DNA from: Pseudomonadota bacterium
Lineage (GTDB): Bacteria; Pseudomonadota; Gammaproteobacteria; Acidiferrobacterales; UBA6901
Direction: 5' to 3'
NCBI GenBank assembly: GCA_021785515.1
Contig: JAJYEX010000003.1
Location: 186,001 to 250,000, forward strand
DNA: 64,000 nt
The stretch's first letter is position 1. Each line of letters begins with the position of its first letter. This document shows positions 660 to 60,402 of this stretch, piece by piece. A program made the position numbers and the translations under genes. The notes beneath the pieces were generated by a model. That model ran no database searches. It was given only the letters and a program-made list of their open reading frames with translations, and was not told where the DNA came from.

Positions 660-686
660 GGAATAAACTCGGATGCTCTGTACGTC
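660..686 (+). promoter_or_regulatory. Candidate ECF-sigma promoter upstream of the exported DsrE gene
   Basis: GGAATA at 660-665 and CGTC at 683-686 are separated by 17 nt, with CGGATG in the spacer. The same three blocks (GGAATAAA, CGGATG, CGTC) occur upstream of the ECF sigma operon at 60377-60402. The GGAA...CGTC form is typical of ECF-type promoters. The transcript would have a leader of about 130 nt before the gene at 821. This site lies in the 334-nt stretch 487-820, where I see no gene. Confidence 0.5.
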
Positions 687-820
687 ATCAACTGGATAGT
701 CCGGCAGACTGCACGCGCCGGACCAGTGGTCCTTATGGACGAGGAATCTTGCCGCCACATCGGGCGGGTGTCGTTCCGCCAAGCGGCCGTGAAAATCGAT
801 GGTCTTCGGAGGAGCATATG

Positions 821-1324
821 ATGAATATCAATGACGGGGTTTGGAGCTGGAAGGCAGCACGCCGCACCTTGGGTGCCGCGGCGGCGGTGGCGGTGCTGGG
901 CATTCCGGGGCAGGCTGCGGCCGCCGGATTCCATGGGGCCGTTGCGACCAAATCCAGCTACGGCGTGATTTTCCAGATCGACAACGGCAGCAACGGGGCA
1001 ATCAAGAAAACGATCAACAATGTGCAAAACCTGCTGCAGGATCCGAGGCTCAAAGGGAAGGTAAAGGTGGAGCTCATTGCCAACAGCAAGGGTTACGCGA
1101 TCTATGTCAAGAATAACGGTTTCGAGAAGAAACTGCTCAAGCTCAAGAAGGAAGGGGTGATTCTGGCCCAGTGCAACAACACCCTGCACGAATTGCACGT
1201 GAACCGCAACAGCCTCTATCCCTTCGTGGCCGTCGTTCCCTCAGGAATGGGCGAGATCGCGCTGCGCGAATCAGAGGGCTGGGCATACATCCATCCCGGT
1301 GCGCCTACCCACGCATCCTTCTAG
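821..1324 (+). CDS. Exported DsrE-family protein
   Basis: A 167-residue protein with a hydrophobic, Ala-rich N-terminal signal peptide (about residues 14-36, ending in AAAA) and then one DsrE-type domain. Cys118 lies in 'AQCNNTL', the position of the conserved cysteine in DsrE-like proteins, and the end 'PSGMGEIALRES..GWAYIHP' is shared with the paralogues at 58540-58923 and 58982-59767. It therefore probably acts in the periplasm in sulfur handling or sensing. A GGAGGAG ribosome site at 808-814 precedes tandem ATGs at 818 and 821; 821 has the better spacing. The ECF-type promoter at 660 suggests control by the sigma factor at 59770-60342. The exact substrate is unknown. Confidence 0.75.
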   Translation: MNINDGVWSWKAARRTLGAAAAVAVLGIPGQAAAAGFHGAVATKSSYGVIFQIDNGSNGAIKKTINNVQNLLQDPRLKGKVKVELIANSKGYAIYVKNNGFEKKLLKLKKEGVILAQCNNTLHELHVNRNSLYPFVAVVPSGMGEIALRESEGWAYIHPGAPTHASF

Positions 1325-1349
1325 CCGACTCCTGGTTTGTTCCGGTGCG

Positions 1350-1390
1350 CATCGTTCCGGTCGCGTCATGTCCACGCGACCGGAACGATG
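1350..1390. terminator. 16-bp perfect hairpin between convergent genes
   Basis: Positions 1350-1365 and 1375-1390 form a perfect 16-bp inverted repeat around a 9-nt loop. It lies just after the exported DsrE gene and before the end of the convergent DUF2934 gene. No T-run follows on either side, so it is not a classic intrinsic terminator. It may stop or protect transcripts from both directions. Confidence 0.45.
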
Positions 1391-1463
1391 TCTGTGTGGC
1401 GCAGAGTCTCTCCCGGAACAGAATAACCCGGGCTTGTCTTCGGGGAAGCTCAGCCGGTCACAG

Positions 1464-1805: not shown

Positions 1806-2441
1806 CTACTGAAGCTGTTCGATGATGCGCTGCAGGATGCGTCGTGGTGGTGCTCCCTGGATCACTATGGGCGTGCCGCCCTGAACCCGGAAGACCATGG
1901 CCGGCACTGCCTCCTGGCCGGCACGCTGCAGCAATGCTTCATTGGCGCGCAGATCTTTTATGATCGCCGGTTTTGGCATAGGTTCCTCCTTGATCTGTCC
2001 GAAACCCGCCGCCTGGCTGAATCCCTGTTCATTTTGTCGGAGAGCCGCGAGCCGGTTCCGGGCTTGCAGGATTGCGGCGGCTTTCCGCTGGCTGGTCGCC
2101 ATCAGCACTCCGACCGGAAGCCACCGGATCTGGACCTGGTTGTGGTTGACCCAGGGGCGCAGGTCTTCGTACAGCTTGTGGCAATAGGGGCAATTCGGGT
2201 CAAAGAATATATAAATAATGTGCGGACTGCGGCCCTCTGTGATCCAGGTTCCACGCCGGATATTTTGCAGAATGGAAGCGGCTGCCTGTTCCTGCGCGGT
2301 CTCAGACCCGGCCGACACCGCCTGGGCCGTGTCGGGTACCAGCAGGGCGACGGCCGTCAGAGCGACCGCGGCGCACAGCGAGATCGATAGCAGCAGCGCA
2401 CCCACGGTTCCTGTAACATACTGTTTCTTAAAGCTAATCAT
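1806..2441 (-). CDS. DsbG/DsbC-type periplasmic thiol-disulfide protein
   Basis: A 211-residue thioredoxin-fold protein with an N-terminal signal anchor (about residues 11-40) and the active site 'FDPNCPYCHKLY'. The CPYC motif is that of DsbG rather than the CGYC of DsbC. The following 'RPWV....VQIRWLPVGV' and the cis-proline 'VPAM' also resemble DsbG. It is shorter than E. coli DsbG because most of the N-terminal dimerisation domain is missing. It may therefore act as a monomeric reductase or isomerase, or reduce sulfur intermediates in the periplasm. No DsbD-type partner is in the window. Confidence 0.75.
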   Translation of the reverse strand: MISFKKQYVTGTVGALLLSISLCAAVALTAVALLVPDTAQAVSAGSETAQEQAAASILQNIRRGTWITEGRSPHIIYIFFDPNCPYCHKLYEDLRPWVNHNQVQIRWLPVGVLMATSQRKAAAILQARNRLAALRQNEQGFSQAAGFGQIKEEPMPKPAIIKDLRANEALLQRAGQEAVPAMVFRVQGGTPIVIQGAPPRRILQRIIEQLQ

Positions 2442-39057: not shown

Positions 39058-39483
39058 TCAGGGCTTCAGGTAGGACCAGCCGGCGCGTTGCCGCCTGATG
39101 ATTTCCGCGATTCCCAGCGGGACGAACCTGATACCTGGATACATGTTTTTGGGACTGAGTCCGCGGGCGCGCATGCTGGTTTCTCCGGCGACGAAACGTA
39201 CTCCCTGCTCCATGGCCTTGTGCAGGTCAGTGCGGACTTCCGAGTCCCGCGCGAGCATATAGACACCCGGGCCGAATGCGACTACCTCTATCGGCATCTG
39301 GTGGTTGCCGAGCTGCTTCTGGATGTAGCGGATGTTGGTCAGGGTAAAGTCCCAGGACTCGGGATCATCGTTGCTGACCTGGATCACGACGCCGTGACGG
39401 CGGGCTGCAGCGGCCTGAACACAGGCCGGCAGCAGCAACCCCAGCAGGGCGAAGAGCAGAACAATCAGGCGTGCGTAACGCAT
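39058..39483 (-). CDS. Exported DsrE-like protein lacking the conserved cysteine
   Basis: A 141-residue protein with a hydrophobic signal segment (about 5-25; a Cys at 21 could even be a lipid anchor) and a DsrE-type domain. 'LTNIRYIQKQLGNHQMPIEVVAFGPGVYML' and 'PLGIAEIIRRQRAGWSYLKP' match the other DsrE paralogues of the window. At the position of their reactive cysteine (C-x-N-T) it has 'AGETSM', so it cannot carry a persulfide there. It lies 103 nt behind the transporter genes, same strand, and may be part of that cluster. It may act as a structural or binding subunit. Confidence 0.75.
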   Translation of the reverse strand: MRYARLIVLLFALLGLLLPACVQAAAARRHGVVIQVSNDDPESWDFTLTNIRYIQKQLGNHQMPIEVVAFGPGVYMLARDSEVRTDLHKAMEQGVRFVAGETSMRARGLSPKNMYPGIRFVPLGIAEIIRRQRAGWSYLKP

Positions 39484-39586
39484 CCTTTGCGCCAGGTGGC
39501 CGGTGAGCACCTGGCCGGAGTATCGCGCAAGCCGTTGCACTGCACAAGCCGCTTCACTATCACCGGATCCGCCCCGCACCCCCGGT

Positions 39587-40012
39587 CTATTCGCAGGCCC
39601 CGCGATCCCAGTGGAAGTACTGGCTGTGTACCTGCCGGTACGACCATACGCCGAACAGGATTCCGAGCAGCGTGAACACGGCCGCCAGCTGGCCCTGGCC
39701 AAGTTGCACAATCGCGACCGCCGGACAGGCCCCGGTCAACGCCCAGCCCGTGCCGAACAGCACGCTGCCCGGAATGGTGCCAGGATGGAAGTGTTTGGAC
39801 GGAATGTGTTGCCCACCGGCAAAGATCCGGAATCCTGCCATGGTGAGCCCGACTGCGCCGGCGAACGTAAAGAGCAGGCGCAGATCCGAGAACACGAACA
39901 TGTGGTGCACCTCGCCAAAATTGGCGAAACCGATTCGGCTCAGGGAGAATCCCAAGGCCACACCCATGAGTCCGTATATGACGTGCTGCACCGTCTTCGA
40001 TGGTCTTTTCAT
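39587..40012 (-). CDS. YeeE/YedE family transporter, second half
   Basis: A 141-residue membrane protein with about four helices and the conserved motif 'FGTGWALTGACPAVAIVQLGQGQ', whose cysteine lines the substrate path in thiosulfate transporters of this family. With the first half encoded at 40009-40635 it forms the two-gene version of a transporter (PmpA/PmpB style). The ATG overlaps the stop of that gene by 4 nt, so the subunits are made together. It probably moves thiosulfate or another sulfur species across the inner membrane. Confidence 0.88.
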   Translation of the reverse strand: MKRPSKTVQHVIYGLMGVALGFSLSRIGFANFGEVHHMFVFSDLRLLFTFAGAVGLTMAGFRIFAGGQHIPSKHFHPGTIPGSVLFGTGWALTGACPAVAIVQLGQGQLAAVFTLLGILFGVWSYRQVHSQYFHWDRGACE

Positions 40013-40635
40013 TTTACCAGCACCTGTATGAGAAATGAGACCGCCACTGCGGTCCCGAAGAACATCGCCGTGGCGAGCAGGCTTGCCGGTACCAGGCGCG
40101 AGCAGCCGCTCAAACCATGACCGGATGAGCATCCGCCTGCCATCTGGGTACCGAAGCCGACCAAAGTGCCGCCCAGCATCAGCAGCAGCCAGGAATGCCA
40201 CCCGGCCCCGAACAGTTTGGTGTAAACCGGCCCCAGGGTGAGGTGCAGCGACAGGTTGCCGCTTATCACCGCGGCGGCCAGTCCGCCCACAAACAGCGCG
40301 ACCAGGAAGGTCAGATGGACTGTCCAGGGCGCACGCGCCGGTGGTGACACGGCCCGGGCCGGTGACGGGATGCCGGCACCGGACCCAGTTAGCGACTGAA
40401 GGGTCGCCTGCTCGCCGAATTCCGCGAGCGTTGCCGCCAGCAGCGCATCGCCCATGGCGGCCGCATTGACGCGGAAGGGTGCCTCGGAACGCGCCACCGC
40501 GCGGGCTTCACGCCAGCCGACGATGCTTGCCCAGCTGCCGGATACGCCCAGCGGTTTGCGCAGCAGAAGCCAGAAGCTGACCGTGATTGCGGCCAGCGCC
40601 AACGATCCTAACCACCATGGCCAGTAGTTTGTCAT
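40009..40635 (-). CDS. YeeE/YedE family transporter, first half
   Basis: A 208-residue membrane protein. Helices flank the family motif 'GTQMAGGCSSGHGLSGCSRL', in which the cysteines are predicted to relay the sulfur substrate. Compared with typical halves it carries an extra loop of about 60 residues after the first helix, rich in Ala/Arg ('MGDALLAATLAEFGEQATLQSL'). The start overlaps the stop of the upstream ankyrin gene by 4 nt. Confidence 0.88.
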   Translation of the reverse strand: MTNYWPWWLGSLALAAITVSFWLLLRKPLGVSGSWASIVGWREARAVARSEAPFRVNAAAMGDALLAATLAEFGEQATLQSLTGSGAGIPSPARAVSPPARAPWTVHLTFLVALFVGGLAAAVISGNLSLHLTLGPVYTKLFGAGWHSWLLLMLGGTLVGFGTQMAGGCSSGHGLSGCSRLVPASLLATAMFFGTAVAVSFLIQVLVK

Positions 40636-58981: not shown

Positions 58982-59767
58982 TCAGACCTGAACGTAGATC
59001 CAGCCCTTCTGCTGCAGGCGGATGATCTGCGCCACGCCGGAATCGATGATAGTGGTTCCGGGCAACAGCTTGGTGTCGATACCCTCGCCGCCAAAGCGAT
59101 TCAGCGTATTGAGGCAGGCCGCAAACTGCAGATTCTTGTAATGCTTCAGCATCGCGCTAACCATGTCCGGGTAGGGGGAGCGGGCAGCCAGCAGCAGGTT
59201 GAGTCCCTCGCCATTGGCGATCACTTCCACGCGCGCCTTCTGATGGGTGCGCTGGTATAAATTGAGCAGGTTGCGGGTCTCGTCCAGCACCTCCTTCATG
59301 TGCGCCGGATTGCCGCTGTTCAGGTTAAAGAGAACCTTGATGACCTGGCTGGCTGGCGTCGCCGCGCTCGCCACCATCTGTCCCGCATGTTCAGGCCTGG
59401 TGGCGGGTGAGGCCGGTGCCACCAGTGCCACCCGCGCGGATCCGCCCCAGTGGCCGATGTTGCTGGTGCTGCCCCGTTGCAGTCCACCTACCAGCACCAC
59501 AACGCCCACCACCGCCGCCGCACCCCTCAGGAATCTCCGGTGTCGGTCGCCCGCGTGCCCTGCCCGGTCCGGCGAGCCGGCCGGGTTGGGCGGATTCTTG
59601 TATGCCATCTGCACCAGATCACGAACCTTGCGCAGTTCGCAGATCCGCCGGTTCATTGCCTCGTCCTTGTTGATCTCGATGTACAGCCGGCCCTTTTCAT
59701 CAAGCGCCAGCTGATCATCGACGAACGCGTTCAGGTATTCGTCTGAAAATGGTCCTTCATTGTTCAT
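58982..59767 (-). CDS. Anti-sigma factor with C-terminal periplasmic DsrE domain
   Basis: A 261-residue membrane protein. Residues 1-58 look like a zinc-free anti-sigma domain ('YLNAFVDDQLALDEKGRLYIEINKDEAMNRRICELRKVRDLV'). One membrane helix (about 81-97) follows a basic stretch. An Ala/Pro-rich linker leads to a DsrE domain (about 141-261) that would face the periplasm: 'VLFNLNSGNPAHMKEVL', Cys218 in 'AACLNTL', 'IIDSGVAQIIRLQQKGWIYVQV'. It starts 2 nt after the sigma gene, so the pair is coupled. I infer that the outer DsrE domain senses a sulfur species or thiol state and controls sigma release. I know of no described example, but could not search. Confidence 0.82.
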   Translation of the reverse strand: MNNEGPFSDEYLNAFVDDQLALDEKGRLYIEINKDEAMNRRICELRKVRDLVQMAYKNPPNPAGSPDRAGHAGDRHRRFLRGAAAVVGVVVLVGGLQRGSTSNIGHWGGSARVALVAPASPATRPEHAGQMVASAATPASQVIKVLFNLNSGNPAHMKEVLDETRNLLNLYQRTHQKARVEVIANGEGLNLLLAARSPYPDMVSAMLKHYKNLQFAACLNTLNRFGGEGIDTKLLPGTTIIDSGVAQIIRLQQKGWIYVQV

Positions 59768-60376: not shown

Positions 60377-60402
60377 GACGGCCATCCGTGTAGCTTTATT
60401 CC
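60377..60402 (-). promoter_or_regulatory. Candidate autoregulated ECF promoter
   Basis: On the minus strand GGAATA (60402-60397) and CGTC (60380-60377) are 16 nt apart, with AA after the first box and CGGATG in the spacer. These blocks recur at 660-686 before the exported DsrE gene. The leader to the sigma start codon is about 30 nt. Confidence 0.55.

Follow-up and report, generated by a model that had tools for sequence, protein, structure and literature searches.

An ECF-type promoter word shared by an exported DsrE gene and a sigma operon with a DsrE-type anti-sigma factor in a predicted sulfur-oxidation regulon

The closest described systems are the ECF26 sigma factors RpoE4 of Sinorhizobium meliloti and SigE of Starkeya novella, which, like the system proposed here, form an ECF/anti-sigma pair answering a sulfur compound (PMC6527743, PMC3511301). 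Their promoters have a −35 box GGAAT and a −10 box CGTC (PMC6527743, PMC3511301). These boxes resemble the motif analysed below, a similarity that amounts to no phylogenetic placement. How the anti-sigma factors of RpoE4 and SigE sense is unknown (PMC6527743). ECF26 anti-sigma factors have been described as COG5662 proteins, with a DsrE sensor unmentioned, whereas the anti-sigma factor here carries a DsrE-type sensor. The ECF26 systems differ further in that their targets are sulfite-oxidising enzymes and their signal is sulfite, while those found here are sox, DsrE and transporter genes in beta- and gammaproteobacteria. Sigma2 of Arcobacter butzleri (AB1044) is another ECF factor activating sox genes; it is campylobacterial, its broad energy-metabolism regulon includes nap and hydrogenase genes, and the accessible text of that report mentions no DsrE sensor (PMC3445524).

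Sulfur-responsive control of sulfur oxidation by cysteine chemistry is also exerted by SoxR and sHdrR, sulfane-sulfur-responsive repressors that control Sox in Hyphomicrobium, and YeeE-like SoxT proteins take part in sulfur import and signalling (accessible parts of PMC12423496, PMC10451225 and PMC11582611). As far as these parts go, both repressors are cytoplasmic ArsR-type proteins, in contrast to a membrane anti-sigma factor with an outward-facing domain, and sulfur sensing outside the cytoplasm of sulfur oxidisers is described as poorly understood (PMC11582611). The DsrE/DsrF/TusD family (PF02635; MTH1491, 1l1s; ST0148, 2pd2), characterised by a conserved cysteine, is the one to which the sensor domain, the exported DsrE protein and the third operon protein are assigned here; what sets the present cases apart is that the domain forms part of a membrane anti-sigma protein or is exported. 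A search of the open-licence literature returned no ECF system with a DsrE-bearing anti-sigma factor. Within that literature, a DsrE-type sensor on the anti-sigma partner of an ECF factor, combined with a predicted regulon for sulfur oxidation, appears to be new.

The window, the whole stretch of 64,000 nt that was analysed, comprises bases 186001–250000 of contig C4 in a genome of 3.05 Mb and 22 contigs. The same ECF-type motif had been noticed at two sites 60 kb apart, and both are indeed exact matches: site 1 (660–686, plus strand) reads GGAATAAA-ctcggatgctctgta-CGTC with a spacer of N15, and site 2 (60402–60377, minus strand) reads GGAATAAA-gctacacggatggc-CGTC with N14. The box spacings of 17 and 16 nt given in the original prediction are the distances from GGAATA to CGTC. 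Its further element, CGGATG, had to be given up: this sits at the third base of one spacer and at the seventh of the other, is missing from the orthologous promoters, and is therefore common to both by coincidence. Elsewhere in the window GGAATAAA-N13..16-CGTC has no match, shuffled sequences contained 0.01 matches on average, and two matches occurred in none of 100 shuffles.

We consider it likely that the promoters at the two sites belong to a single autoregulated ECF system, which would switch on sulfur oxidation upon periplasmic sulfur. The basis is computational: the motif, its conservation, the regulon content, the dependence on presence of the system, the domain layout and an invariant cysteine. 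The features are listed in Table 1.

Table 1. Features in the window and exact motif matches in the genome (positions without contig refer to the window).
Feature	Position	Strand	Evidence or context
−35 box GGAATAAA, exported-DsrE promoter	660..667	+	Exact match; kept in 5/5 genus orthologues
−10 box CGTC, exported-DsrE promoter, spacer N15	683..686	+	Exact match; N15 in 5/5 genus orthologues
Exported (Sec-type signal) DsrE-like protein P0004, 168 aa, C119-N-N-T	818..1324	+	Translation; hydrophobic N-terminus
Strong hairpin, 18-bp stem, terminator-like, without T run	1349..1391	+	z-score −5.2; just 3' of P0004
DsrE protein P0001, 127 aa, without signal peptide in this genome	58540..58923	-	Pfam DsrE 36.3 bits, above cut-off (22.7)
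Anti-sigma factor P0002, 261 aa: cytoplasmic N-terminus, one TM, periplasmic DsrE-like domain	58982..59767	-	52-sequence alignment, TM, 1l1s match
ECF sigma factor P0003, 190 aa	59770..60342	-	Sigma70_r2 47.6 bits, Sigma70_r4_2 61.4 bits, both above cut-off
−10 box CGTC, sigma-operon promoter, spacer N14	60377..60380	-	Exact match; N14 in 29/30 sigma promoters listed
−35 box GGAATAAA, sigma-operon promoter	60395..60402	-	Exact match; kept 5' of sigma through the order and beyond
Genome match 1	C4:186660		Site 1, 5' of exported DsrE gene
Genome match 2	C4:246377		Site 2, 5' of sigma operon
Genome match 3	C1:132840		228 bp 5' of outer-membrane porin gene
Genome match 4	C11:169		5' of putative soxY, start of sox genes; contig edge

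Many matches unrelated to sulfur genes had been named beforehand as the outcome that would speak against a common regulon. The exact pattern GGAATAAA-N13..16-CGTC has four matches in the 3.05-Mb genome, most of them 5' of sulfur genes; when reversed as a control, it has one. The porin 3' of the match on C1 might be an entry pore for sulfur compounds, or the match might be due to chance; a clear tie to sulfur is lacking. The match on C11 precedes MTVQETTVTTVTRRTFLKGS at the contig edge, which agrees with how SoxY begins in relatives. A soxZ-like fragment stands at the end of contig C22, with soxA-like and soxB genes after it, and in the genome G002 the corresponding contig ends overlap, the complete SoxY passing the equivalog cut-off. 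We infer that C11 and C22 join at soxY across the contig break in this genome as well. Contigs break inside or at soxY in three genomes of the genus, which suggests that the soxYZ region is repeated.

Loosening the word to GGAATAA-N14..16-CGTC raised the count to eight in the genome versus five for the control; such loose matches alone are no evidence. Of the four added matches, one precedes a Tat-exported DsrE gene, one is a near-match 5' of a tsuA-like gene, one falls within an open reverse frame and one has no clear downstream gene. The near-match GGAATAAT-N14-CGTC lies on C10, 5' of the Tat-exported DsrE gene, and GGAATAAC-N14-CGTCTTTA on C17, about 730 bp 5' of a TsuA-like gene. One-mismatch matches at C3, C10:257119 and C11 were set aside as they have no convincing downstream gene. 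At C10:13337–14911, a molybdoenzyme-like frame, judged by eye to be of the sulfite oxidase/MsrP type, overlaps the Tat-exported DsrE gene or follows it closely.

In five genomes of the genus, 19 of the 21 exact matches could be assigned 5' of sulfur genes: the sigma operon (5), the exported DsrE gene (5), a Tat-exported DsrE gene (1), TsuA-like genes (4), soxY (3) and soxB (1). The other two are the porin match of this genome and one inside a coding frame reading like FtsZ. Recurrent targets among relatives are SoxB (TIGR04486) and SoxY (TIGR04488), both above the NCBIfam equivalog cut-off, and TsuA/YeeE-like proteins (Sulf_transp above, TsuA equivalog below cut-off). Tat-exported DsrE proteins recur as well, as do YeiH-like putative sulfate exporters, which score below their NCBIfam cut-off. 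Every target type keeps its own spacer length: the promoter of the exported DsrE gene always has N15, all but one of the 30 sigma promoters listed have N14, and those of Tat-exported DsrE genes have N13 in 16 of 16. Response-regulator genes in several relatives (motif with N15, about 220–330 bp away) were left uncounted, since conserved coding sequence is possible there. Three genomes belonging to a single genus also have the motif (N13) 100 bp 5' of a DciA-family gene. In the window itself, a two-gene split YeeE-type Sulf_transp pair precedes the gene for a DsrE-domain protein, and an ankyrin-repeat protein is encoded immediately 5' of the pair (39058–40635, minus strand); no copy of the motif was found near these genes.

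The few matches, mostly 5' of sulfur genes, and the conservation of site 1 support the proposal that a DsrE protein of the periplasm, a DsrE sensor in the membrane and another DsrE protein share one regulon. As a regulon of DsrE genes it was drawn too narrowly: the DsrE members stand, and sox genes and sulfur transporters belong to it as well. The sequence data argue strongly for a regulon of the sigma/DsrE-anti-sigma system.

Site 2 heads an operon encoding, in this order, the ECF sigma factor, the anti-sigma factor and a DsrE protein. The sigma factor has regions 2 and 4 only, in about 190 residues, as is the rule for ECF factors. The motif lies 5' of the sigma gene in most relatives and the anti-sigma gene is adjacent in the aligned loci, an arrangement typical of ECF autoregulation. 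The anti-sigma factor has the layout of a membrane anti-sigma protein, with a conserved N-terminus (N13–D17), one hydrophobic segment (about residues 78–97) and a C-terminal domain, and is predicted to bind sigma. Ten positions are invariant in an alignment of 52 sequences; N13-A-F-V-D17 and C43, both cytoplasmic, are included, and so is C218 of the periplasmic DsrE-like domain. The fold was assigned from profile matches to DsrE-like proteins of known structure: the family profile matched PDB 1l1s with an E-value of 8.4e-19 over the C-terminal domain, and also 2pd2. As a single sequence the protein stays below the cut-off of Pfam DsrE (14.8 versus 22.7 bits). The conserved cysteine of PF02635 is present as C218 in 52/52 anti-sigma factors and in the C-N-N-T of P0001 and P0004.

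The third operon DsrE had been called cytoplasmic. It does look so in this genome, where it lacks a signal peptide, as it does in one relative of the genus; most of its counterparts seen elsewhere in the order, however, have a signal peptide or lipoprotein signal. All three DsrE domains would therefore usually be located outside the cytoplasm.

From these data the following mechanism may be proposed. The sigma factor would be co-transcribed with the anti-sigma factor, which would span the membrane once. Upon arrival of reduced sulfur in the periplasm, probably sulfane sulfur or a thiosulfonate would be loaded onto C218, either directly or by delivery through the exported DsrE protein. C218 is the candidate receiving site because it is invariant and because DsrE homologues bind sulfur on cysteine, according to the accessible text of PMC4175335 and PMC3397948. 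The loaded C218 would relax the hold of the anti-sigma factor, and the freed sigma factor would transcribe promoters of the form GGAATAAA-N13..15-CGTC, namely those of its own operon, exported DsrE genes, sox genes and genes for TsuA/YeeE-like and YeiH-like transporters. The sulfur signal, the persulfide switch and the role of the exported DsrE protein as carrier or feedback partner are thus conjectural parts of the scheme.

The same regulon might instead answer sulfite, oxidants or envelope stress, with C218 being structural or a redox switch rather than sulfur-carrying. Related ECF26 systems do answer sulfite, by a mechanism that is unknown (PMC6527743), and a second invariant cysteine, C43, lies in the cytoplasmic part of the anti-sigma factor, where sigma would be bound. 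We regard this reading as rather unlikely, however, as the sensor is a DsrE-type domain, homologues of which carry sulfur on cysteine (PMC4175335, PMC3397948), and most targets are genes for the oxidation or transport of sulfur.

Which sigma factor reads the motif was addressed by comparing 59 relatives, in which 154 motif matches were found versus 33 for the control. Genomes with a strong anti-sigma match (n = 48) have a mean of 3.02 matches against 0.50 for the control, whereas in those without one (n = 11) the enrichment is gone (0.82 against 0.82). The difference persists after removal of one sigma-promoter match per genome (p 0.005, a value that is indicative only as the genomes are kin). 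A different ECF sigma factor could read the motif and have the DsrE operon as just one of its targets, given that GGAAT/CGTC is also the promoter of the ECF26 factors RpoE4 and SigE in alphaproteobacteria (PMC6527743) and that three weaker sigma matches exist in the genome, the best being 37% identical. This is improbable in view of the dependence of the motif count on anti-sigma presence and of the position of the motif 5' of this very sigma gene across beta- and gammaproteobacteria. We infer that the sigma factor of the operon reads the motif and that the anti-sigma factor inhibits it.

Site 1 is located 131 nt 5' of the ATG of the exported DsrE gene, and the hairpin just downstream suggests that this gene forms a single-gene transcript. 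Its product is below the Pfam DsrE cut-off (13.8 versus 22.7 bits). In a profile–profile comparison, the profile of its orthologues matched the anti-sigma family with an E-value of 4.7e-20, the C-x-N-T cysteines being aligned. Alignment also confirms that it shares the C-x-N-T and a C-terminal SG...GWxYI-type segment with both operon DsrE proteins. Orthologues 76–82% identical are present in 4/4 other genomes of the genus, each with GGAATAAA-N15-CGTC upstream. Among the five species the boxes are 100% identical, the spacer 40% and the 95-bp flank 29% (mean pairwise identity); the flank value is near random and the surrounding DNA is otherwise unalignable. Conserved blocks in the upstream alignment comprise aGGGAATAAA, CGTC and GGAGGAG, the last being the ribosome-binding site. 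A chance match at site 1, for which one might cite its CGTC followed by ATC in this genome instead of the TTT common elsewhere and its spacer of N15 instead of N14, is hardly credible, as position, sequence and spacer are the same in 5/5 genus members amid flanks of such low identity, a footprint that contradicts it. Convergent with the exported DsrE gene is a gene for a thioredoxin/DsbA-like protein with a hydrophobic N-terminus (1806–2441, minus strand).

Conservation of the sigma/anti-sigma(DsrE) pair extends through the order Acidiferrobacterales and to further sulfur oxidisers among the beta- and gammaproteobacteria. When named genomes were scanned with the anti-sigma profile, 80 loci were obtained, of 124 relatives found; carriers include Sulfuricaulis, Acidiferrobacter, Sulfuricella, Sulfurimicrobium, Sulfuritalea, Thiobacillus, Sedimenticola, Thiohalobacter and a record titled Halothiobacillus. 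At 60 of the 80 loci GGAATAA-N-CGTC is located upstream, where the sigma promoter would be, and many of the remainder have GGAATATTT-N-CGTC. Ten genomes outside the order contain 33 matches versus 5 for the control, of which 11 are sigma promoters and 10 belong to exported DsrE genes. In several betaproteobacteria the exported DsrE gene is divergent to the sigma gene and each has its own copy of the motif; by this comparison, the two sites of the window, 60 kb apart, are the dispersed form of that divergent pair. In two betaproteobacterial sulfur oxidisers the motif was also observed 5' (d=55) of the gene for a 481-aa exported thioredoxin-like protein (DUF255-type by eye).

The analysis names a candidate sensor protein with an invariant cysteine in its DsrE-like domain, and it defines a promoter word and a small set of targets, conserved in many sulfur oxidisers. 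The promoter word is a simple annotation aid for sulfur-oxidation regulons in genomes of uncultured bacteria. In a wider reading, which we put forward tentatively, the system might be a widespread sulfur-sensing device of beta- and gammaproteobacterial sulfur oxidisers, in which the DsrE cysteine of the anti-sigma factor reads periplasmic sulfane sulfur and is loaded or discharged by exported DsrE proteins acting as sulfur carriers. If this is true, Sox and sulfur import would be controlled directly from outside the membrane.
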